Below, piece by piece: positions 6,427 through 42,540 of a stretch of 52,137 nt of DNA. Both the position numbers and the translations under genes were made by a program. The DNA is taken from NCBI GenBank assembly GCA_017539565.1, contig JAFYCS010000009.1, forward strand, positions 1-52,137. The letters are read 5' to 3'. Each line of letters starts with the position of its first letter. Position 1 is the first letter of the stretch. This DNA is from Lachnospiraceae bacterium. Lineage in GTDB: Bacteria; Bacillota; Clostridia; Lachnospirales; Lachnospiraceae. The notes under the pieces are model-generated. The model searched no databases and was not told the DNA's origin. It was given only the letters and a program-made list of their open reading frames with translations.

Positions 6427-8649
6427 ATGAAAAGACCTCTTCTCTGTGCCTGTCTTCTGTTCCTGTTATCCGCGGCGATGATAATCTATATATCGGGACC
6501 GCCGGATGAGTGCTACCGTGAAGGAAATGTCACGGTAAAGGGCACGGTAGAGAAAAAGGAACTGAAGAAGGATCTTAAGGTGTTCTACCTTAAGGATGTC
6601 GGCATCGCCGGCGAAGATACACAGACTGAAAACAAAGAATGCGGACTCATCTGCTATACCGATGGCTTTATGCCGCCTGTCGGCGCCAAAGTCACGGTGC
6701 GCGGCAGCATACGTTTATATTCCCCTGCGACCAATCCCGGGGAGTTTGATATGCGCAGGTATTATCTCTGCCTGGGATACGGCGGAAGGCTTGATGTAGA
6801 CAGCTGGGAGCTTGCGGGTATTCGGTACAGCGCGTGGAAAGAGGGGCTGTGGGAACTGCGCTGCAGCCTGGGAGAACTGTACGATAAGATGCTTGGTGAG
6901 GACGACAGCGCTGTTATGAAAGCAATGGTGCTGGGGGATAAGGGAGACCTGTCTGCGGAATTAAAGGATCTTTACCGGGCAAACGGCATATCCCATATAC
7001 TGGCTATCAGCGGGCTTCATATATCCATACTGGGAATGGGGCTTTATAAGCTGCTGAGGAAATCGGGAGTTCGGGTGCTTCCGGCAGCAGCTGCCGCGGT
7101 ATTTATCATGGTGAACTATGCGGTGCTGACCGGGGCGGGGACGTCGACGGTGAGGGCTGTCATGATGTTTTCCCTGATGGCGGTGGCGGATGTGGAACGC
7201 AGGTCTTATGACCTGCCCACTGCACTGGGGCTGTCCGCGGCAACTGCCGTGATGGGCAATCCGTATATACTGCTGACATCCTCCTTCTGGCTGTCCTATT
7301 CGGCAGTGGCGGGAGTGGCGGTATTCGGCCCGGCCCTCTGGGGAGAGCTGCGTGCGGATGATAAGCGTATCAGGAAGCTGCTGCAGGGCTTCGGGGCATC
7401 GGTGGCGGTAAGCATCTTTACGATGCCGCTAATCCTGGACTTTTATTATGAGATACCTGTATATTCGGTGCTGCTTAATCTTATCGTCATACCCCTTATG
7501 AGCATCCTGATGGTCGCCGGGCTCATCATGCTGCCCGTCGGGATGATATGGCTGCCGGCGGGAGTGGCGGCAGGGCTGCCGGTACATCTTATACTCAGGC
7601 TGTATTCGTTCCTGTGCGAGTCTGTCTCAAAGCTTCCCGGTCACACATATATAGCCGGGGCACCGCCGTTATGGAAGATGATACTTGTATATGCGGTATT
7701 CTTCATACTGATATTTGCGGATAAGCGTCTCATAAAGCGGCTGTTTAAGCTTAAAAGGGATGTGGAAGATCTTAAGCTGTGCATCGTCAAGCTGTGCGTG
7801 TGCTTTTTTGCGGTTGCCCTGCTGCTGGTAAACTTCCGGGGAGAGTTTAAACTGACCATGCTGGATGTGGGACAGGGTGACGGCTTCTGTATAGAGACTA
7901 AGAAGCTGAATATCATGATAGACGGCGGCAGCACCTCAAAGGACAAGCTGATGCAGTATCAGCTAAAGCCTTTCCTTAAATATGAGGGGATAGGAAGGGT
8001 AGACCTGTGGTTTGTTACGCATCCGGATACGGATCATTTATCGGGCCTCATGGATATGCTTAAGGATGAGGATTGTGAGATAAAGATAGGGGCCATAGTC
8101 CTGCCGGATGCTAAAGGCGCGGAAGAGGATTTTCATGAGCTTATAAGCCTTGCCCGGGGTAAGGATATCGACGTGTTTTACAACAGCGCAGGCAAAAAGC
8201 TTGAATTTGATGATCTGGGCGTTTTATGCCTTCATCCCGCGGCAGGATATGACTGCGAAGATGTCAATGAGTATTCCCAGATACTGGAGATAGTAAGCCC
8301 GGCCGGGTTTTCCGGCATATTTACCGGTGATGCCACTGTCGAGAGCGAGGCTGCGCTGCTTAACAGCCCTGTGCTTTCAATGCTTTCAAAGCCCTCCGGA
8401 GGCTATGACATCTTAAAACTCGGCCATCACGGCTCACATACATCCAGTTCGCAGGAGTTTCTTGACCTTATATCCCCCCGGATCGTCCTGGTGTCCTGCG
8501 GCGCGGACAATCCCTACGGCCATCCCCATAAGGAGGTCATGGAGCGCACAGCGGGTATGGGCTGCGCTGTGTATCGCACGGATCATGATGGCTGTATTAC
8601 GATAAGGGCTGCAGGAGGCAGATATGAGGTGAGCAGCTTTTGCCGCTGA
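6427..8649 (+). CDS. comEC: ComEC/Rec2 competence channel
   Basis: The polytopic membrane channel that brings single-stranded DNA into the cytoplasm, 740 residues. Order: N-terminal DUF4131 region (about 30-150), Competence domain with NGISHILAISGLHISILG near 190 and many membrane segments to about 460, then a metallo-beta-lactamase-like domain (about 475-740) with LDVGQGDGF, THPDTDHLSG, IFTGDA and LGHHGSHTSS, all nuclease-type metal ligands present. GAAGGAGC precedes the ATG. The last 30 codons (from ATGGGCTGC at 8557) have a diverged second version at 10955-11059, beyond the repeat arrays. The present 3' end may therefore have been exchanged when that element arrived. Confidence 0.93.
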   Translation: MKRPLLCACLLFLLSAAMIIYISGPPDECYREGNVTVKGTVEKKELKKDLKVFYLKDVGIAGEDTQTENKECGLICYTDGFMPPVGAKVTVRGSIRLYSPATNPGEFDMRRYYLCLGYGGRLDVDSWELAGIRYSAWKEGLWELRCSLGELYDKMLGEDDSAVMKAMVLGDKGDLSAELKDLYRANGISHILAISGLHISILGMGLYKLLRKSGVRVLPAAAAAVFIMVNYAVLTGAGTSTVRAVMMFSLMAVADVERRSYDLPTALGLSAATAVMGNPYILLTSSFWLSYSAVAGVAVFGPALWGELRADDKRIRKLLQGFGASVAVSIFTMPLILDFYYEIPVYSVLLNLIVIPLMSILMVAGLIMLPVGMIWLPAGVAAGLPVHLILRLYSFLCESVSKLPGHTYIAGAPPLWKMILVYAVFFILIFADKRLIKRLFKLKRDVEDLKLCIVKLCVCFFAVALLLVNFRGEFKLTMLDVGQGDGFCIETKKLNIMIDGGSTSKDKLMQYQLKPFLKYEGIGRVDLWFVTHPDTDHLSGLMDMLKDEDCEIKIGAIVLPDAKGAEEDFHELISLARGKDIDVFYNSAGKKLEFDDLGVLCLHPAAGYDCEDVNEYSQILEIVSPAGFSGIFTGDATVESEAALLNSPVLSMLSKPSGGYDILKLGHHGSHTSSSQEFLDLISPRIVLVSCGADNPYGHPHKEVMERTAGMGCAVYRTDHDGCITIRAAGGRYEVSSFCR

Positions 8650-8686
8650 CCGCGGAGGCGGGGGTGGCAGCTTAATTGAGGAAATT

Positions 8687-9677
8687 GGCTACCACAAGGC
8701 ACAAATGCAGGTGATGTGTTAGCCAAAGGTGTTGGAAAAGCAGCCTGAAGTAAGGGATTGGGCTAACACAAGTTGCGAAAACAGGGAATGTGTTAGCCAA
8801 AAGTGTTGGAAAAGCTGCTGGAAGATAGAGATTTGGCTAACACAAGTTGCAAAATGAAGGGATGTGTTAGCCAAAGGTGTTGGAAAATCAGCCTGAAGTC
8901 AGGGTATAGGCTACCACAAGTCACGAAATGAGGGAATGTGTTAGCCAAAGGTGTTGGAAAAGCAGCCTGAAGTCAGGGAACCGGCTACCACAAGTCACGA
9001 AAGCAGGTGATGTGTTAGCCGAGGGATCATGAAAAGCAGCCTGAAGTCAGGGAACCGGCTACCACAAGTCACGAAAGTAGGTGATTTGTTAACCAAAGGT
9101 GTTGGAAAAGCAGCCTGAAGTAAGGGAACCGGCTACCACAAGTCACGAAAGCAGGTGATGTGTTAGCCAAAGGATCAGGCAAAGCAGCCTGAAGTCAGGG
9201 TATAGGCTACCACAAGTCACGAAATGAGGGAATGTGTTAGCCAAAGGATCAGGCAAAGCAGCCTGAAGTTATGGTATAGGCTACCACAAGTCATGAAATG
9301 AGGGAATGTGTTAGCCAAAGGTGCTGGAAAAGTTACTTGAAGTAAGGGAACCGGCTATCACAAGTCACGAAAGTAGGTGATGTGTTAGCCGAGGGATCAT
9401 GAAAAGCAACCTGAAGTCAGGGAACCGGCTACCACAAGTCACGAAAGCAGGTGATGTGTTAGCTAAAGGATCAGAAAAAGCAGCCTGAAGTTATGGAATC
9501 GGCTACCACAAGTCACGAAAGCAGGTGATGTGTTAACCAAAGGCGCATGAAAAGCAGCCTGAAGTAAGGGAATCAGCTACCACAAGTTGCAAATGAAGGG
9601 ATGTGTTAGCCAAAGGCTAATGAAAAGTTACTTGAAGTCAGGGAACCGGCTACCACAAGTCACAAAAAGGAGGGACT
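8687..9677 (+). repeat. Tandem 74-bp hairpin repeat array A
   Basis: Thirteen full units and a half unit. Left arms (GGCTAMCACA) start at 8687, 8761, 8835, 8909, 8983, 9057, 9131, 9205, 9279, 9353, 9427, 9501, 9575 and 9648: twelve steps of exactly 74 and a last step of 73. Each full unit holds a left arm, about 18 nt, the inverse arm TGTGTTAGCC, then a 36-nt linker containing GCAGCCTGAAGT. Some left arms (GGCTACCACA) have one mismatch to the right arm. The last left arm runs directly into the ribosome site of the gene at 9678. Linkers are near-identical, so this is not a CRISPR. The 8650-8686 stretch before it holds nothing recognised. Confidence 0.93.
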
Positions 9678-10493
9678 ATGATAAAAGAAAAGGATATTTT
9701 AAGTGAAATCAATTGCCTGGAAAAGAGTCTGGAAAGAATATCGGCTGAAATAGAGATATTGAAAAAGGAATTTCCGGAGGGAGGAAGATTGCGTGCTGTC
9801 AGGCATGGCAAAGGGCATCAGTTTTTTCTTCGGAGATCAGGTGAAAGATCTAACGGGGAATATATTAAGAAAAAGGATATCAGGAAAGCTGAGATGCTGG
9901 CTCAGATTGAATATGATGAGAAACTGGTCACAGTGTTTCAGCAGGCTATAGAATCTTTTAAGAAATGTAAAGCAGCGGGAACTGATAGTATTTTTGAGGA
10001 AGTATTACAATCGATGGCTCCGGGGAAAAGAGAGCTTGTTGTAAAGCCTTATATTTCGGATCAGTGCTATTTGGAAAACTGGATGGCGCAGGAATATACA
10101 GGATTGGGATTCCGGGAGGGGAATCCTGAGTTTTATACACGTAAAGGACTCAGAGTCAGATCAAAGTCGGAGGTTATAATAGCAGATATGCTGGATGAAC
10201 TGAATGTTCCGTTTCTTTATGAGAAACCTCTTTGTCTGAAGCACGGAACGATATATCCGGATTTCACATTGCTGAATATAAAGGAACGTAAAGAGGTATA
10301 TTGGGAACATTTCGGAATGATGGATGATAGGGAATACCGGGATGATGCATTGATGAAGATAAGAGAGTATGAGGAAAATGATCTGTTTCAATATGATTCG
10401 GTAATATGGACTTTTGAAACTGGGAAGAACCCTCTGAATACCAGAGAGTTGCGTAAAATGATAAAAATATTGAGAACAAGACTTATGTCATGA
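9678..10493 (+). CDS. PD-(D/E)XK nuclease-like protein inside the repeat array
   Basis: A 271-residue protein of no named family that I recognise. Residues 1-95 are charged and helical, coiled-coil-like (ILSEINCLEKSLERISAEIEI). The C-terminal half has a PD-(D/E)XK pattern: Glu165 in RSKSEVIIADML, Asp195 in TIYPDFTLLN, Glu210 in VYWEHFGM, then a basic helix-rich end. The PDF...WEHFG form is known from helicase-associated and Vsr-like nuclease domains. The gene occupies the loop of one repeat unit: left arm at 9648, start 30 nt later with AAGGAGGG, and the matching right arm ATGTGTTAACC at 10525 shortly after the stop. This suggests the protein acts on, or moves with, the repeats. Nuclease fold is moderately supported; the role is inferred. 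Confidence 0.6.
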   Translation: MIKEKDILSEINCLEKSLERISAEIEILKKEFPEGGRLRAVRHGKGHQFFLRRSGERSNGEYIKKKDIRKAEMLAQIEYDEKLVTVFQQAIESFKKCKAAGTDSIFEEVLQSMAPGKRELVVKPYISDQCYLENWMAQEYTGLGFREGNPEFYTRKGLRVRSKSEVIIADMLDELNVPFLYEKPLCLKHGTIYPDFTLLNIKERKEVYWEHFGMMDDREYRDDALMKIREYEENDLFQYDSVIWTFETGKNPLNTRELRKMIKILRTRLMS

Positions 10494-10524
10494 TGGATAT
10501 GTTTTGTCGAAGTCGCCAATAGTA

Positions 10525-10954
10525 GATGTGTTAACCGGAAGCCCCGAGAGAAGCAGCCTGAAGATAGGGTATAGGCTAACACAAGTCGCGGAAAGGAGGG
10601 GATTTGTTAGCCAAAGTTCCGGGAGAAGCAGCCTGAAGATAGGGAATCGGCTAACACAAGTCGCGGAAAGGAGTGGATTTGTTAGCCAAAGTTCCGGGAG
10701 AAGCAGCCTGAAGATAGGGGATTGGCTACCACAAGTCGCGGAAAGGAGGGGATGTGTTAGCCAAAGTTCCGGGAAAAGCAGCCTGAAGATAGGGAATCGG
10801 CTACCACAAGTCACGAAAAGAAGGGATTTGTTAGCCGGAAGCCGCGGATATCAGGAGAGCAGCAGAGCCTGAGGCTACCACATGTCACGAAAGCAGGGTA
10901 TGTGTTAGTCAAAAGCCCCGGATAACCGGAGAAATGCAGCATCCGCGGCTAACC
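10525..10954 (+). repeat. Tandem 75-bp hairpin repeat array B
   Basis: Starts with the right arm ATGTGTTAACC (10525-10535) that completes the interrupted unit of array A. Left arms follow at 10574, 10649, 10724, 10799 and 10873 (three steps of 75, then 74). The linker reads AAAGTTCCGGGAGAAGCAGCC, a variant of array A's. The final partial arm GGCTAACC ends at 10954, where the comEC-like remnant begins. In one frame the repeats give an open stretch of a 25-residue repeating peptide, judged not to be a gene. Confidence 0.9.
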
Positions 10955-11059
10955 ATGGGCTGCACTGTATACCGTACGGATCATTCGGGCGCAGTTACCA
11001 TAAAAACCGCAAAAAGACGGCTAAACATCAGCGAGTTTTTCATTGAAAAGCACTTTTGA
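10955..11059 (+). pseudogene. Remnant of a comEC 3' end
   Basis: Reads MGCTVYRTDHSGAVTI... to a TGA at 11057-11059, matching the comEC C-terminus MGCAVYRTDHDGCITI... at 8557-8649. Many DNA differences are at third codon positions. The similarity starts exactly where the repeat array ends. No start or ribosome site of its own is needed; it looks like a displaced gene end. The -35 box of the next gene lies inside it. Confidence 0.8.
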
Positions 11060-11071
11060 TTGTGCTAAAAT
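11043..11071 (+). promoter_or_regulatory. Sigma-A promoter for the acidic lipoprotein gene
   Basis: TTGAAA at 11043-11048, a 17-nt spacer, TAAAAT at 11066-11071. It overlaps the end of the comEC remnant and drives the gene starting at 11106. Confidence 0.75.
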
Positions 11072-11105
11072 GTCACGGGTAAAGTTAAAGGAGGAGTTTT
11101 GGATT

Positions 11106-12389
11106 ATGAAAAAGAAGATAGCATTGATCATAACGGTTGTTCTGATGCTGGGTATCCTGGCAGGGTGCGGCAATGCGGCTTCACCTGTAAAGACATTCTG
11201 CACCAAGCTCACCAAGCTTGATTATGCAGGCATGTGTGAGTGCTTTGAAGAGGAGATGATGACCGAGGAGGACTTCACCCTCATGTACGACGATTTCTCA
11301 GAGATGGCACTGGATGACATCTTTAAGGAGCGTGCAAAGAATATCAAGTACACCATAGGCAAGGCTGTGCTTGAAGAGGATGATGACGAGTCTGCAACCG
11401 TAGAGGTTGTATTTACCTATGATGATTATTCCGCAAGCATCAAGCAGGCACTGGACCAGTTCTATAAAGAGTATTTTGAGGATGAAGATGATCTGGTCGA
11501 TGAAACAAGGCTTGCAGAACTGTTAAAGGAGCATTACACCAACGATACTCCCGCACGTAAGGAAGAGACCGTTGTATTCTATCTGGAGAAGCTTGAGGAT
11601 TCCAAAAAGTGGGTAGTATCTTATGATTTTGACATGCTGGAGCGTGTAGCTAATATCATCTCCTGCAATCTGATGGATACCTGGTATGATTATGACTATG
11701 ATTTTGAGGAGGATGATGAAGATGCATCCGTTCCCATCTATGATACCGATGGTAACGTGATCGCTTTTACCGACAGCTCAAAGGAATGGTTTGAAGACCT
11801 GACTGATGACCAGATAACCGAGGCTTTATCCGCAAACGGTATAGTACGTGATCCCAATGCGGATCTGAGCAATTACGATTATCTTTTCGAGTCCGATGAC
11901 GAAGATGAAGATGACTGGGACGATGAAGATGACTGGGACGATGAAGATGACTGGGATGACGAAGACTGGGAATCAGACGATGAGGACAGCGACTTCTATG
12001 ATGAGTGCATGGACCGCCTCTTTAATGTAGAGAGCAGCGGAACCCTCCTTATAAAGAATTATGTCCTTAACGATGTTGATGAGGATGAAGATTATTACAT
12101 CTTAACAGGTGATGTTTACGATATTGATCTATATGCAGAGTGGCTGTCCATAGTAAACAGCGTGCCTGATTTTGCCAACACCTATCCGGAAATATATGAG
12201 GATATGGATGACGGCCTTTACTGTGAGGAGATGGATGTGTATATTCCCAAGGATATGGCAGTATCCGGGATGTGGCCTTCCGGCTCCGGCATAAGCGATC
12301 TTATGAGCCTGATCAATTCCGGGCACGGCATCGCATATAGCGGTGAGATGGATGACGAGGCCGAGGCAGTATACGATACGAATTATTAA
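11106..12389 (+). CDS. Lipoprotein with Asp/Glu-rich repeats, function unknown
   Basis: A 427-residue exported lipoprotein: MKKKIALIITVVLMLGILAGC, lipobox LAGC. The ATG at 11106 is chosen because AAAGGAGGAG lies about 9 nt upstream; an upstream in-frame start would put a hydrophilic tail before the signal. The N-terminal part (SPVKTFCTKLTKLDYAGMCECF) resembles the small stress-type domains repeated in clostridial lipoproteins (DUF5105/DUF4878-like, a weak memory match). The middle has a very acidic stretch with a 6-residue repeat DDEDDW encoded by 18-bp direct repeats near 11905-11970. The acidic region may bind calcium or cell-wall cations; this is speculative. It has its own promoter. Confidence 0.75.
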   Translation: MKKKIALIITVVLMLGILAGCGNAASPVKTFCTKLTKLDYAGMCECFEEEMMTEEDFTLMYDDFSEMALDDIFKERAKNIKYTIGKAVLEEDDDESATVEVVFTYDDYSASIKQALDQFYKEYFEDEDDLVDETRLAELLKEHYTNDTPARKEETVVFYLEKLEDSKKWVVSYDFDMLERVANIISCNLMDTWYDYDYDFEEDDEDASVPIYDTDGNVIAFTDSSKEWFEDLTDDQITEALSANGIVRDPNADLSNYDYLFESDDEDEDDWDDEDDWDDEDDWDDEDWESDDEDSDFYDECMDRLFNVESSGTLLIKNYVLNDVDEDEDYYILTGDVYDIDLYAEWLSIVNSVPDFANTYPEIYEDMDDGLYCEEMDVYIPKDMAVSGMWPSGSGISDLMSLINSGHGIAYSGEMDDEAEAVYDTNY

Positions 12390-37497: not shown

Positions 37498-37732
37498 TGC
37501 TAACATAAAGGCCTAAAACGAATGATGTGTTAGCCCGGTGACCCTGAAAATGTCCGGGACAGAGACCGGGCGGCTAACACAAAGATCAAAAATAGAGGAT
37601 GTGTTAGCCAAAAGAGCCTAAAAAAGGGTCCAATCAGATGCTTGGCGGCTAACACAAAGCTTGAAAATAGAGAATGCGTTAGCCCAATGAGCATAGAAAG
37701 GGTCCAATCAGATGCATAGCAGCTACCACAAA
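37498..37732 (+). repeat. Hairpin repeat array C, related to arrays A and B
   Basis: Left arms near 37498 (TTGCTAACAT, degraded), 37572 (GGCTAACACA), 37647 (GGCTAACACA) and 37721 (AGCTACCACA); right arms TGTGTTAGCC at 37526-37535 and 37600-37609, TGCGTTAGCC at 37675-37684. Spacing is 74-75 nt, as in arrays A and B, though the linkers differ (AAAGGGTCCAATCAGATGC). The last unit has no right arm. It occupies most of the 37471-37771 gap between the sce7726-like gene and the 67-residue gene. Confidence 0.88.
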
Positions 37733-37771: not shown

Positions 37772-37975
37772 ATGGATGTAAATGAATTAGTCGATATGAT
37801 AGACAATAAAATGAACAGCGGCGTGAGCAGGCTTTCCGTAGGTTTTTCAGAGGATCTGAATACCGGAGTAAAGAAGGAAAGCTATCATCACGGCCGCTGC
37901 GATGTGGGCAGCCCCTGGGCCAAGGGCACGGTTTCAAACTGCGACGTGATCGACACCCAGGACGATCAATCATAA
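37772..37975 (+). CDS. Small conserved-looking protein after array C
   Basis: A 67-residue soluble protein, MDVNELVDMIDNKMNSG at the start and HHGRCDVGSPWAKG at the end, family not recognised. AAAGGAG lies 7 nt before the ATG. The beginning of its gene (GTAAATGAATTAGT) recurs in the remnant near 45766, next to a similar terminator, so gene and terminator travel together. The two Cys, two His and short length could suit a metal-binding or toxin-antitoxin-type protein; there is no direct evidence. Confidence 0.65.
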   Translation: MDVNELVDMIDNKMNSGVSRLSVGFSEDLNTGVKKESYHHGRCDVGSPWAKGTVSNCDVIDTQDDQS

Positions 37976-41003: not shown

Positions 41004-41062
41004 AGTACCGTACCGGATGGGAGCCGCGGTCGTACTGAAATGATAATGATGTCGTACCGGGC

Positions 41063-41172
41063 GTAAGCCGGGGGTGTATTGAAAATATAATAATGTCATT
41101 CTGAGGTTGTAAGCCGGGGGTGTATTGAAAGTATAATAATGTCATTCTGAGGGCGTAAGCCCGAAGAATCTT
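41063..41172 (+). repeat. 46-bp tandem repeat made around the dispersed element, copy 7
   Basis: GTAAGCC starts at 41063 and 41109, and again as GTAAGC at 41155, a period of 46. Each full unit includes GGGGGTGTATTGAAA and an incomplete TGTCATTCTGAGG; the last unit finishes the dispersed hairpin with AGAATCTT (41140-41172). The 41004-41286 gap otherwise holds only the box at 41238. Confidence 0.75.
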
Positions 41173-41237
41173 GAAAGATTATATGTATAGATAAAAGAAT
41201 ACTGGCAGCCGATAAGGCTGCTAAATATACACACAAA

Positions 41238-41286: not shown

Positions 41287-42453
41287 ATGAGCAGGATCTA
41301 TATTTTTACGGGAAAAGGCGGAGTGGGAAAGAGCAGCGTGGCTGCGGCACACGCATATAAAAGCGCAAAGGAGGGAAAGAAAACTCTGCTTGTCAGCACT
41401 GATATGGCCCACAATCTGGGGGATCTGTTTGAGCATAAGCTGGGAAAAGAAGCGGAGGAGGTATTACCGAACCTGTCCCTCTATGAGATAGACCCGGAAT
41501 ACGTTATGCAGAATGATTTCGCATATATTGTGGATTATATCGGCAGACTGCTTTCCGATGCCGGGGGCATGAGTATTTCGGACCTGGGGATGATACCGGG
41601 AATGGAGGAGCTTTTCTCCCTGCTTAAGATAGCGGACATATACAAAGAAGAGACCTACGAGCGCATCATTGTTGACTGTGCGCCTACAGGCGAAACCTTA
41701 TCGCTGCTTAAATTCCCGGAACTGCTGTCCTGGTATATGGAAAAACTCTTCCCCATCGGAAAGATCGGCGTGCGGCTGCTGGCTCCGGTATCCAAGGCGG
41801 TGTTCAAGGTCGAGATGCCCAACAAGACAGCGATGAATGATATCGAAAAGATCTACCTTAAACTTGCCGAGTTGCAGGAACTGTTAAAGGACAGGGATGT
41901 CAGCAGCATCAGGATCGTGACCACGCCGGAGAAGATGGTGGTGGAAGAGACCAAGCGCAATTACATGTACATGAACCTGTACGATTTCAATGTGGACGGG
42001 CTGTATATAAACCGCATACTCCCGGCAGACATAGGCAATGAGTTCTTTGACAGATGGATAGTCCTCCAGAGGGAATACATCGATACCCTGAAAGAATGCT
42101 TCAGTGCGCTGCCCATCTGCGAGATCCCCTGGTACGACGAAGAGGTACGCGGCGAGGCGGCCATCAGAAGGATAGCGGATAACGTACTGGCGGATAAGGA
42201 AGTATTTGGAAAGCGCATAATAAAAGACCGTGAAAGCTTTACTCAGAATGAAAAGGGATACCAGCTTGAAGTATTTGCTCCCTGTGCCGATAAGGCGGAC
42301 ATCGATCTCTATCAGGCATCAACGGATATAGTCATAAAGATAGGCAATTTCAAACGTAACATTCCGCTTCCAAACAGCCTGCGAAGCTATAATGTGACGA
42401 GCGCAAAACTGGAGGATGGCAGGCTGCGCATCCAATTTGAACAGGAAAAATGA
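41287..42453 (+). CDS. ArsA/Get3-family ATPase, first copy
   Basis: A 388-residue cytosolic ATPase of the ArsA/Get3/MinD class. Deviant P-loop GKGGVGKSSVAAA near residue 9, STDMAHNLGDLF, switch II DCAPTGETLSLLKFP (ArsA/Get3 usually DTAPTGHT), and a C-terminal small beta domain (about 320-385) of the HSP20-like ArsA type. The family moves oxyanions with ArsB or inserts tail-anchored proteins; no arsB, acr3 or arsR is nearby. AAAGGAGG precedes the ATG. The paralogue at 42905 and a small protein between them form one operon. Function is open. Confidence 0.85.
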   Translation: MSRIYIFTGKGGVGKSSVAAAHAYKSAKEGKKTLLVSTDMAHNLGDLFEHKLGKEAEEVLPNLSLYEIDPEYVMQNDFAYIVDYIGRLLSDAGGMSISDLGMIPGMEELFSLLKIADIYKEETYERIIVDCAPTGETLSLLKFPELLSWYMEKLFPIGKIGVRLLAPVSKAVFKVEMPNKTAMNDIEKIYLKLAELQELLKDRDVSSIRIVTTPEKMVVEETKRNYMYMNLYDFNVDGLYINRILPADIGNEFFDRWIVLQREYIDTLKECFSALPICEIPWYDEEVRGEAAIRRIADNVLADKEVFGKRIIKDRESFTQNEKGYQLEVFAPCADKADIDLYQASTDIVIKIGNFKRNIPLPNSLRSYNVTSAKLEDGRLRIQFEQEK

Positions 42454-42519
42454 GGACAGAAGGACCGTCCCCGCGTCCTCACAGGAAAATGAGGACAGAA
42501 GGACCGTCCCCGCGTCCTC
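42452..42519 (+). repeat. Tandem duplicate of a GAGGAC...GTCCTC hairpin
   Basis: Two identical 29-nt copies (42452-42480 and 42491-42519), 39 nt apart; each starts GAGGACAGAAGGACC and ends CGCGTCCTC, with GAGGAC/GTCCTC arms. The first copy overlaps the stop of the ArsA-like gene. The arrangement looks like a slip duplication of 39 nt including ACAGGAAAA. Confidence 0.85.
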
Positions 42520-42540
42520 AAGAGAATGGAGGTATTAAGC

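Follow-up and report, generated by a model that had tools for sequence, protein, structure and literature searches.

To our knowledge, a dedicated enzyme has been identified for few families of short interspersed repeats in bacteria, the most familiar case relying on HUH transposases. Tandem repeats found directly upstream of a nuclease gene characterize ToxIN, a type III toxin-antitoxin system in which the ToxI repeats are RNA pseudoknots of ~36 nt and ToxN is not of restriction-like fold. In the REPIN/RAYT system (REP doublets with REP-associated tyrosine transposases, TnpA-REP), inverted pairs of a short word are found in extragenic DNA; one genome can have several groups of words, every group close to a gene of its own, with some ordered tandem clusters beside that gene and some tandem arrays opposite in orientation in two parts of the chromosome (PMC3116915). 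TIGR-Tas loci resemble the locus described here in that a tandem array lies beside a gene, with sequences that vary by locus (PMC12045711). Each TIGR unit is made of an edge repeat, a 9-nt spacer, a loop repeat and a further 9-nt spacer, gives rise to 36-nt RNAs and is associated with Nop-domain proteins.

The locus analysed here is found in a Lachnospiraceae bacterium (GCA_017539565.1, contig JAFYCS010000009.1, positions 1 to 52,137, forward strand), and this whole stretch of 52,137 nt is referred to as the window and its genome as G000. The following features were identified:

6427 to 8649, + strand: comEC, with the nuclease gene downstream
8687 to 9611, + strand: upstream array of 13 full units (10-bp arm, loop of mostly 18 bp, 10-bp arm, spacer of ~36 bp; period 74)
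9648 to 9657, + strand: unpaired (fourteenth) left arm GGCTACCACA, immediately 5' of the gene
9678 to 10493, + strand: nuclease gene, an open reading frame of 271 aa with homologues
9678 to 10112, + strand: N-terminal half, residues 1-145 (AlphaFold2 model)
10113 to 10490, + strand: C-terminal PD-(D/E)XK nuclease domain, residues 146-271 (profiles, AlphaFold2 model and fold matches)
10527 to 10536, + strand: right arm TGTGTTAACC, 3' of the gene
10574 to 10910, + strand: downstream array of 5 full units, period 74-75
10946 to 11038, + strand: apparent leftover of an ancestral comEC 3' end
37498 to 37730, + strand: orphan array with the same arm word, 3 units plus a lone left arm, 74-75 bp period

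The word GGCTAACACA, at no more than one mismatch, occurs 43 times in the window versus 2.4 expected occurrences and a maximum of 6 in 100 shuffles. The word search placed left arms at 8687, 8761, 8835, 8909, 8983, 9057, 9131, 9205, 9279, 9353, 9427 and 9501, the thirteenth (9575-9584, two mismatches) being read directly in the sequence, and each right arm begins 27-29 bp downstream of the start of its left arm. The downstream units start at 10574, 10649, 10724, 10799 and 10873, and TRF reported 13.4 copies of period 74 across 8679-9667 and, across 10544-10951, periods of 75 and 74. These data confirm the sequence-only reading that had preceded this analysis, which counted 13 full units before the gene and five after it. 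Its placement of the gene between a left and a right arm also holds locally, the right arm starting at 10527 and not at 10526, and AAAAAGGAGGG, similar to the loop sequence, stands before the ATG. The small array at 37498-37730, absent from that reading, has degenerate first and last arms, loops and spacers that differ, and no adjoining family gene.

The 271-aa protein is the founding member of an as yet unnamed family from gut-type bacteria, found mainly in Lachnospiraceae, in which a helix-hairpin-helix N-terminal half is joined to a PD-(D/E)XK (restriction-like) nuclease. At least 556 relatives were recovered in one scan, with full length checked for part of them, and the distribution is patchy, several members being found in some genomes. 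In the AlphaFold2 model (mean pLDDT 91.6), the N-terminal half comprises a helix (4-29), a beta-hairpin (37-52) and a long helix (65-111). In the nuclease domain, E165 is found on helix 163-174, D195 directly before strand 196-200 and E210 in strand 205-212, which corresponds to the acidic residues on helix A and strands 2 and 3 that define the PD-(D/E)XK core. K163, E165, D195, E210, H211, G213 and Y220 are invariant in 38 members; in their alignment the (D/E)XK lysine is missing, E210-H211 being followed by a variable residue, and the invariant K163 might act as its substitute. The nuclease fold, already proposed from the letters, is supported by profile matches and by fold searches on the model. 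In a viral library, the C-terminal domain matched a phage Holliday-junction resolvase (rank 1), DUF2726 proteins, phage homing endonucleases and a Vsr-named protein, and the PDB matches, all with E above 0.001, include DrdV, the R2 retrotransposon endonuclease, OkrAI and MunI. This fold is common to Vsr, EDxHD homing endonuclease, DUF2726 and TnsA-like domains and to phage Holliday-junction resolvases, and the window's nuclease domain is, we assume, linked to the EDxHD enzymes. We know of no description of the N-terminal half or of the array for any of these proteins.

The N-terminal half, presumed to be the arm-binding and oligomerisation part, matched no known DNA-binding family in Pfam. Its nearest fold match was prefoldin, a weak one (E 1.4-2.0, three chains named prefoldin, TM-score by target >0.5), and a guess from secondary structure that it was an integrase-type sheet DNA-binding domain was dropped, given the empty Pfam result and this weak prefoldin match. 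Reading the gene as part of a plasmid or phage element was also dropped, in view of few and mostly partial matches: 9 of 72,556 plasmid records (none of the nine over 80% of the protein), 2 of 50,697 phage records (one of them short and unannotated, 91% coverage) and ten viral contigs, in the nuclease domain only.

The association between gene and repeats extends to the family. Upstream tandem palindrome arrays (score ≥4) were found at 77 of 112 testable homologues versus 4 of 120 control windows, two of these four being the nuclease family's own arrays. This outcome favours the sequence-only reading, which repeat-free homologue flanks would have refuted. A looser criterion raised the count to 85 of 112, the strict one leaving 35 of 112 without an array, and a later homologue set had arrays at 4 of 9. 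Before counting, seven relatives restricted to the nuclease domain (L046, L065-L070) were dropped, proteins with identical last 120 residues were counted once, and five members with <160 bp upstream were left out of the array counts. The expectation that homologues would be flanked by the same arms stood only in part: inverted-repeat arrays do flank them, but GGCTAACACA is not general, each lineage having its own arm sequence and period. The position of the gene exactly in the loop of one unit is likewise seen in the window, and possibly in G031, the nearest relative, and L129, but is not general. In fact, 28 of 69 arrays end in an apparently unpaired left arm (periods of 53 and 63 bp leave the phase ambiguous), and only four of these 28 have their first partner arm within ~160 bp past the gene (L129, 19 bp; G000, 35 bp; L164, 92 bp; G031, 156 bp), which led to the rejection of a gene-in-loop rule; in several members whose sequence was read in its entirety, a complete array comes before the gene. 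A duplicated flank was also discarded as a general mark of insertion, since upstream and downstream flanks matched at only 8 of 84 loci (0 when flanks were swapped between loci), several of them array against array. Such matches were mainly of this type in G000, G031 and L149; the matches outside arrays were of comEC ends for G000 and G029 and of a 32-bp repeat for L150, with L055, L125 and L147 unassigned to type.

The array periods fall near 53, 63, 74 and 84 bp, i.e., in steps of one helical turn, the mode being 52-54, 62-64, 71-75 or 84 bp in 75 of 77 arrays once 6 of 83 arrays with modes <45 bp were excluded from the helical test. The helical periodicity was R=0.85 at 10.5 bp (null maximum 0.38) and R=0.79 for 23 clusters at 45% identity (null 0/20,000); the test was not significant with the 6 clusters obtained at 40% identity (1576/20,000). 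Additionally, the period is inherited together with the protein, its changes on the protein tree numbering 19 versus 39.3 when shuffled (0/200). In this tree, 85 of 111 rows have a period label, those of L054, L118, L143, L145 and L150 being set by hand and L063 being labelled 74 despite a 42-bp lag. Arm similarity correlates weakly with protein identity (rho 0.10-0.12), tracking the N-part slightly better than the C-part. When arrays of one genome are compared, identity is 91-95% for arms, 46-53% for loops and 33-36% for spacers, the arm value being inflated because units were found by their arms. Inside an array, loops and spacers are diverged copies (mean 55-67% identical in G000 and G031), and a GAAA core is more frequent in module centres (0.38) than in spacers (0.14; p=0.0003).

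Some of the words also recur elsewhere in the genomes that hold the gene. Palindromes of GGCTANCACA number 20 in G000, 30 in G031 and 5, 2, 1 and 1 in G001, G013, G029 and G007, with none in the other 22 of the 28 genus genomes searched. Of the genomes carrying a homologue of ≥50% identity, 5 of 6 have such palindromes, compared with 1 of the 22 remaining genomes (Fisher p=0.0004). The own word of G007 has 21 copies on five contigs, in 62-bp steps, and 0 in 17 other genomes; the four orphan pieces of G007 are all at contig ends and alike in pairs, and may represent as few as two arrays. In the complete genome AC2031, the word of its array is found 40 times, spread over 11 places and mostly at 73-bp intervals, with a single copy in one of ten other genomes; all 11 places are within 0.87 Mb of the inferred origin at ~1.7 Mb, and the A-rich loop strand is on the leading strand at 11 of 11. 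The word of C18, the second homologue of the window's genome, has 5 copies in its own array only and no orphan. Three of the four words searched genome-wide recur in arrays away from the gene, with the period of their own genome, and these three are rare or absent in other tested genomes without a close homologue. Unit presence and number also differ between species with 97-98% identical RlmB: the array at rlmB counts 6 units in G000, a single one in G001 and 0 in G020 and G026. At two sites, units present in G000 are fewer or absent in close relatives, with no intermediate seen, and no target-site duplication was found at the orphan sites examined.

These findings point to an unreported repeat-and-nuclease system composed of the nuclease family and its recurring phased arrays. 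The sequence-only reading had already suggested such a possible system, with the repeats as putative substrate, binding site or mobility end of the protein; the linkage supports this suggestion and widens it to a family. On balance, gene and arrays probably form one system, in which the protein would bind the phased palindromes and probably drive their amplification, working in a manner similar to REPIN/RAYT. The comparisons show the linkage, the inheritance of period and, weakly, of arm along with the protein, the helical quantisation, arms conserved against drifting loops and spacers, and unit presence and number that vary among close species. We infer from these that the protein binds directly and as a dimer of the geometry given below, that it cuts, and that it has a causal part in amplification. 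The N-terminal half would recognise the ~10-bp arm, and the nuclease domain may act at the middle of the ~38-bp palindrome, where the GAAA core recurs. Two subunits would occupy the two arms of one unit, and the whole-turn spacing of neighbouring units would bring the bound proteins to one DNA face. Arrays elsewhere with the same arms and period would be sites of the same protein, and arrays could arise and grow by unit duplication, probably promoted by cutting or nicking by the protein followed by repair, comparable to the dependence of REPINs on their RAYT. That one cell tolerates dozens of putative cut sites is a point that needs explanation.

The likeness to REP elements noted from the sequence extends to short palindromic words in inverted pairs, scattered between genes across the same genome as the nuclease gene, for three of four words and not for that of C18. 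However, the enzyme is of the PD-(D/E)XK type rather than an HUH/Y1 transposase: no HUH (Y1) domain appeared in Pfam, NCBIfam or PHROGs scans, one member matching an IS110 model at 0.073. Units are also mainly in helically phased arrays, with tens of units per genome, and the GGCTAACACA word does not follow a GTAG/CGTC tag rule, GTAG being found at 3 and CGTC at 1 of 117 units within 8 bp outside the arms on either strand. If true, this would be an independent invention based on a restriction-like nuclease and helix-locked repeat spacing, with a physical model that can be tested directly.

A more ambitious version, which we advance tentatively and hold to be possible, comprises several hundred two-domain nucleases, many beside a record of their own recognition sequence, in which the N half would read the arm and the nuclease would dimerise and cut at the GAAA core common to the units, in the manner of a natural zinc-finger-nuclease pair. 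Specificity would drift fast under a constant architecture, and arrays would amplify themselves via cut and repair. In that case, a protein-to-site code could be read directly from genomes. As the presumed sites of most tested genes adjoin the genes themselves, numerous pairs of protein and site are available for learning how specificity changes.

Alternatively, a chromosome-organising or regulatory factor could act on phased sites (parS/matS-like or autoregulatory), the nuclease being secondary and the arrays spreading by ordinary duplication. Helical phasing, arms conserved in trans and arrays upstream of their own gene agree with this, as does the origin-proximal, polar placement in AC2031, a post hoc observation in one genome whose polarity leading-strand A-richness alone could produce. 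It is nevertheless rather unlikely, since the invariance of E165, D195, E210 and H211 in 38 members argues that catalysis matters, and the variation in unit presence and number among species with nearly identical RlmB is unlike a core chromosome function.

It is unlikely that the arrays act as RNA, i.e., as transcribed hairpins (10-bp stem, 18-nt loop) bound or processed by the protein, as in type III toxin-antitoxin systems or guide-RNA arrays. Although one unit from each of 22 arrays folds alone as a hairpin, and arrays are intergenic and directly upstream of the gene, with the A-rich loop strand on the leading strand at all 11 places in AC2031, whole-turn spacing has no obvious reason in flexible RNA and no Rfam family reached the gathering score in 8400-11300. 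Changes in the arms affect one side alone in 96 cells, against 4 with compensation (arm conservation in this tally is also inflated, the units having been located via their arms), a recurrent C-T mismatch at arm position 6 being kept, and arms as RNA stems were abandoned as the main reading, compensation being nearly absent. An inner stem, by which several units seem to extend the hairpin into the loop, was also rejected, as loop halves swapped between arrays did as well in 189 of 2000 trials. ToxIN differs from the present repeats, which occur at other places of the genome too and show helical phasing; this phasing argues against a type III RNA antitoxin. In contrast to TIGR-Tas, units are mostly 53-84 bp, without the alternating 8-12-nt repeats and 9-nt spacers of the 36-nt unit or a set of distinct spacers, and no Nop domain was found among the 50 listed of 199 fold matches or in Pfam at E≤0.1. 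Unlike CRISPR, unrelated acquired spacers are absent, loops and spacers being diverged copies.

A defence nuclease using the arrays as self-marking or decoy sites is quite unlikely. Its domain has relatives in candidate phage-defence proteins, as the nuclease domain matches PADLOC PDC-S68 C-termini at 1e-26 and the HEAT_CxxC_PD-DEXK profile at E≤0.1 in 27 of 38 members, and the patchy distribution, variable arms, paralogues and comEC-adjoining position of 26 distinct members agree with such a role. However, the match is limited to the nuclease domain (PDC-S68 profiles are ~1200 positions long), and a full-length member was seen on none of the nine plasmid records and on one short unannotated phage record. 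We know of no array for PDC-S68 or HEAT_CxxC_PD-DEXK proteins. Finally, that the gene is a passenger among common intergenic repeats is very improbable and largely contradicted: orphan arrays without an adjoining gene exist, and palindromes of the GGCTAACACA word persist singly in G007 and as two copies in G013, two genomes with arrays built on different words, but control windows rarely hold arrays, the period tracks the protein tree, and the three words that occur genome-wide are those of each genome's nuclease array, the other tested genomes having few copies of them or none.

The phased arrays may also explain contig breaks in Lachnospiraceae assemblies. Additionally, many family copies lie beside comEC, which encodes the DNA-uptake channel, and this raises the question of why. 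Downstream of comEC lie the gene of the window, those of 20 other distinct members (47-83% identical) and those of 5 members of the 53-bp class, a total of 26 distinct members. Among 30 comEC loci, 26 lack the gene, and none of the 24 of these with enough downstream sequence scored >13; all four with the nuclease gene have an array, with lag scores of 25-331. In the window, 10955-11003 repeats 8557-8605 at 76%, as an apparent remnant of the ancestral comEC 3' end.

The inverted-repeat units described in the sequence-only reading, thirteen before the gene and five after it, were borne out by repeat mapping and by counts of the arm word, which occurs 43 times in the window at up to one mismatch, against 2.4 expected and a maximum of 6 in 100 shuffles. 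Each unit consists of a 10-bp arm, a loop of 18 bp (17 bp in one upstream unit and 19 bp in three downstream units), the arm again in inverted form and a spacer of roughly 36 bp, giving a period of 74 bp, or 75 bp in part of the downstream array. The gene and an orphan array, which uses the same arms away from any gene of the family, lie as follows.

9678-10493, open reading frame of the nuclease
37498-37730, smaller orphan array with the same arm word, ending in a lone left arm

A small open reading frame (37772-37975, 67 codons) follows the orphan array, again with an arm just before a gene, and further short tandem repeats unrelated to the arms were found at 41032-41177 (46-bp units) and 42441-42520 (39-bp units).

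The palindrome arrays are linked to the gene. The 700 bp upstream of each homologue were scored for 8-mers repeated at the same period as their inverse; the set comprised 117 distinct homologues, seven nuclease-domain-only relatives having been dropped beforehand, and 112 were scored after removal of five with less than 160 bp upstream. Ten shuffles were beaten by 85 of the 112, against 10 of 120 control windows drawn from 60 comEC and rlmB loci. When a score of at least 4 was demanded in addition, the counts were 77/112 and 4/120, so the expected enrichment of such arrays over chance in the flanks of homologues was found; two of the four control windows, at score 4, are the family's own arrays at comEC, the gene directly upstream of the window's array. 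In a later set of members, an array was present in four of nine. A comparison at comEC itself covered 30 loci out of 35 genomes of the genus: all four loci with the gene carry an array, with lag scores from 25 up to 331. Among the 26 without it, 24 had enough downstream sequence; none of these went beyond a lag score of 13, and three slightly exceeded their own shuffles. In one of these 24, G001, the only 155 bp available downstream of comEC hold a single palindrome, and the homologue of that genome begins another contig. Many homologues lie near contig ends, as would be expected if the arrays break assemblies. The 74-bp class and the 53-bp class each have members directly downstream of comEC (26 distinct loci in all), with a possible link to DNA uptake.

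The same words recur elsewhere in the genomes. In the window's genome (G000), the window's word was found at C29, C36 (twice), C55, C57 and C110, with steps of 74-75 bp and one of 69. Between six such places identity is 93-95% in arms, 53% in loops and 36% in spacers, and between seven places in G031 it is 91-94%, 46-49% and 33%, respectively, with arm identity favoured in both comparisons, since units were located via their arms. The palindrome was present in six of the 28 genomes searched (of 35 in the genus), with 20 copies in G000, 30 in G031, 5 in G001, 2 in G013 and 1 each in G029 and G007, and the reversed control pattern was absent from all 28. The word occurs in 5/6 genomes with a homologue at least 50% identical versus 1/22 others (p=0.0004), the exception, G021, having an array of its own with another word. 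The array of G007 also uses a different word, at a 62-bp period; this word forms 21 palindromes on five contigs in 62-bp steps, with two double steps (123 and 124), and was absent from 17 other genomes, the reversed control occurring once, in G007. The four G007 pieces not adjoining the gene may represent two arrays, since they lie at contig ends and are alike in pairs. In AC2031, a strain with a single-contig genome, its own word forms 40 palindromes spread over 11 places, most steps being 73 bp; among ten other genomes a single copy was found in one, and the reversed control gave one, in G001. A few AC2031 steps measure 93 bp, about two turns above 73. In one genome with six paralogues, three adjoin arrays with three different words and periods of about 63, 52 and 74, and no array was found at the other three. 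Counting against recognition in trans, the word of the second G000 homologue (C18, with a 53-bp array) forms five exact palindromes, all within its own array.

Close species differ in these arrays. Downstream of rlmB, six units are present in G000 and one in G001, with flanks alignable on both sides, and none in G026 and G020, whose RlmB proteins are 98% and 97% identical to that of G000; these two share a terminator-like stem with G000 there, followed by a different gene. At the C110 site, four units in G000 correspond to none in G026 and G031; G020 carries other sequence, and the G001 contig is too short.

Arm words vary among members (GGCTAACACA, GGCAATAA, GGCTGTAAT, TGCAGTCAC, TCGCTGTCA and others), including those adjoining comEC. 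Mean arm similarity is about 1.6 between proteins 30-40% identical, 2.6 between those 50-60% identical and 4.6 when identity exceeds 80%; in ranks the correlation is weak (0.10; 7 of 500 permutations as high), and by protein part 1 of 500 permutations was as high for the N-terminal and 10 for the C-terminal half. The period is co-inherited with the protein, its class changing 19 times on the protein tree versus 39.3 when shuffled (0/200 as low; 85 labelled rows, five set by hand). The modal period falls within 45-90 bp in 77 of 83 arrays, the six with modes below 45 bp being left out of the helical test, and 75 of the 77 modes lie at 52-54, 62-64, 71-75 or 84 bp, the remaining two at 46 and 60. 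Phase concentration at 10.5 bp reaches 0.85, where 2000 null draws gave at most 0.38, and is 0.79 with one value per 45%-identity cluster (23 clusters; 0/20,000 random); at 40% identity, with six clusters only, the test was not significant. Spacings about one turn apart are mixed within some arrays (62/53 in locus L058, 64/55 in L062, 63/73 in L129, 94/84 in L125). In the 53, 63 and 74 classes the distance from arm to arm is about 28 bp, where the arm order nearer 28 was chosen, a choice unambiguous only at longer periods; on this order, the spacer alone absorbs the helical steps. In 72 arrays, the motif GAAA/TTTC occurs at the centre of 38% of modules versus 14% of spacers (p=0.0003).

The helical phasing speaks for double-stranded DNA rather than RNA. 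Among arm changes in 108 distinct units, 96 are one-sided versus 4 compensated, and an inner stem within the loop was not significant. The orientation of the arrays is not neutral: at 11/11 places in AC2031 the loop strand rich in A coincides with the leading strand. Every one of these places lies in the half of the chromosome nearer the origin, no more than 0.87 Mb from its inferred position near 1.7 Mb (taken from GC skew together with the direction of genes at 20 sampled points). This was given little weight, since a single genome is involved and A-richness is usual in leading strands.

The 271-residue protein had no above-cut-off Pfam match, no Pfam or NCBIfam family was common to more than one of 38 members scanned, and the family profile gave no match to PDB sequences at E≤1. 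Residues 152-264 are matched by PADLOC profiles PDC-S68 (best 1e-26), and invariant columns in the alignment of 38 members include R161, S162, K163, E165, E182, D195, F196, E210, H211, G213, Y220 and E247. The AlphaFold2 model built from this alignment (mean pLDDT 91.6, pTM 0.66) predicts a helix (4-29), a beta-hairpin (37-52), a helix (65-111) and then an alpha/beta domain, in which E165, D195 and E210 are positioned as in PD-(D/E)XK enzymes. Foldseek returned restriction-like enzymes from the PDB (DrdV, R2 endonuclease, OkrAI, MunI; 0/199 matches at E≤0.001) and, among viral models, a Holliday-junction resolvase, DUF2726 proteins and homing endonucleases (3/718 at E≤0.001); the helix-hairpin-helix half weakly resembles prefoldin.

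A homologue is present in 26 of 98 genomes (own, genus, family, order), including full-length ones in G087, from a different family of the same order. A scan of named genome contigs gave at least 556 relatives, and of the 80 kept, 63 bear Lachnospiraceae titles, other titles being Clostridiales, Eubacterium, Eubacteriaceae, Bacillota, Thermoflexaceae, Roseburia, Pseudobutyrivibrio, Saccharofermentans and Treponema. In a phylum sample of 398 genomes, 15 had matches at E≤1e-10: five full-length, all from the window's own family (one genome with six copies), and ten mainly in the nuclease part, one starting at profile position 75 and one at 103. Six proteins of one genome, G066 (L046, L065-L069), match mainly in the nuclease domain and have a different N-terminal half; their upstream repeat signal is weak at L046 and L065, and at the other four it does not exceed shuffles.

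Most likely, a dimer of the protein would bind both arms of each unit, the bound units would lie along the same side of the DNA, and the nuclease, acting at the core, would promote duplication and spread of units. Binding of the arms is strongly suggested, and cutting and amplification by the protein are suggested with moderate strength. The nearest known system is REPIN/RAYT (PMC3116915), and the present system works alike but falls outside REPIN/RAYT, as the enzyme class differed when tested and the present units do not match the REPIN/RAYT tags. TIGR-Tas (PMC12045711) was a further system compared. Among the matches listed from open PMC literature, there was no account of this nuclease family or of palindrome arrays with a restriction-like nuclease.

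The comEC 3' end occurs twice in the window, at 8557-8605 and 10955-11003. Since a remnant beyond the array (10946-11038) is similar to the comEC end of G026, a relative with an empty site, the in-frame end that precedes the array is apparently not ancestral and looks imported. The cassette may have arrived with a foreign comEC end, most simply via recombination. A similar duplicated piece was observed in G029 (L023). At L150, a locus in a record titled Treponema sp., a 32-bp direct repeat (97% identical) lies on both sides of the gene region and is possibly the mark of a recent transfer.
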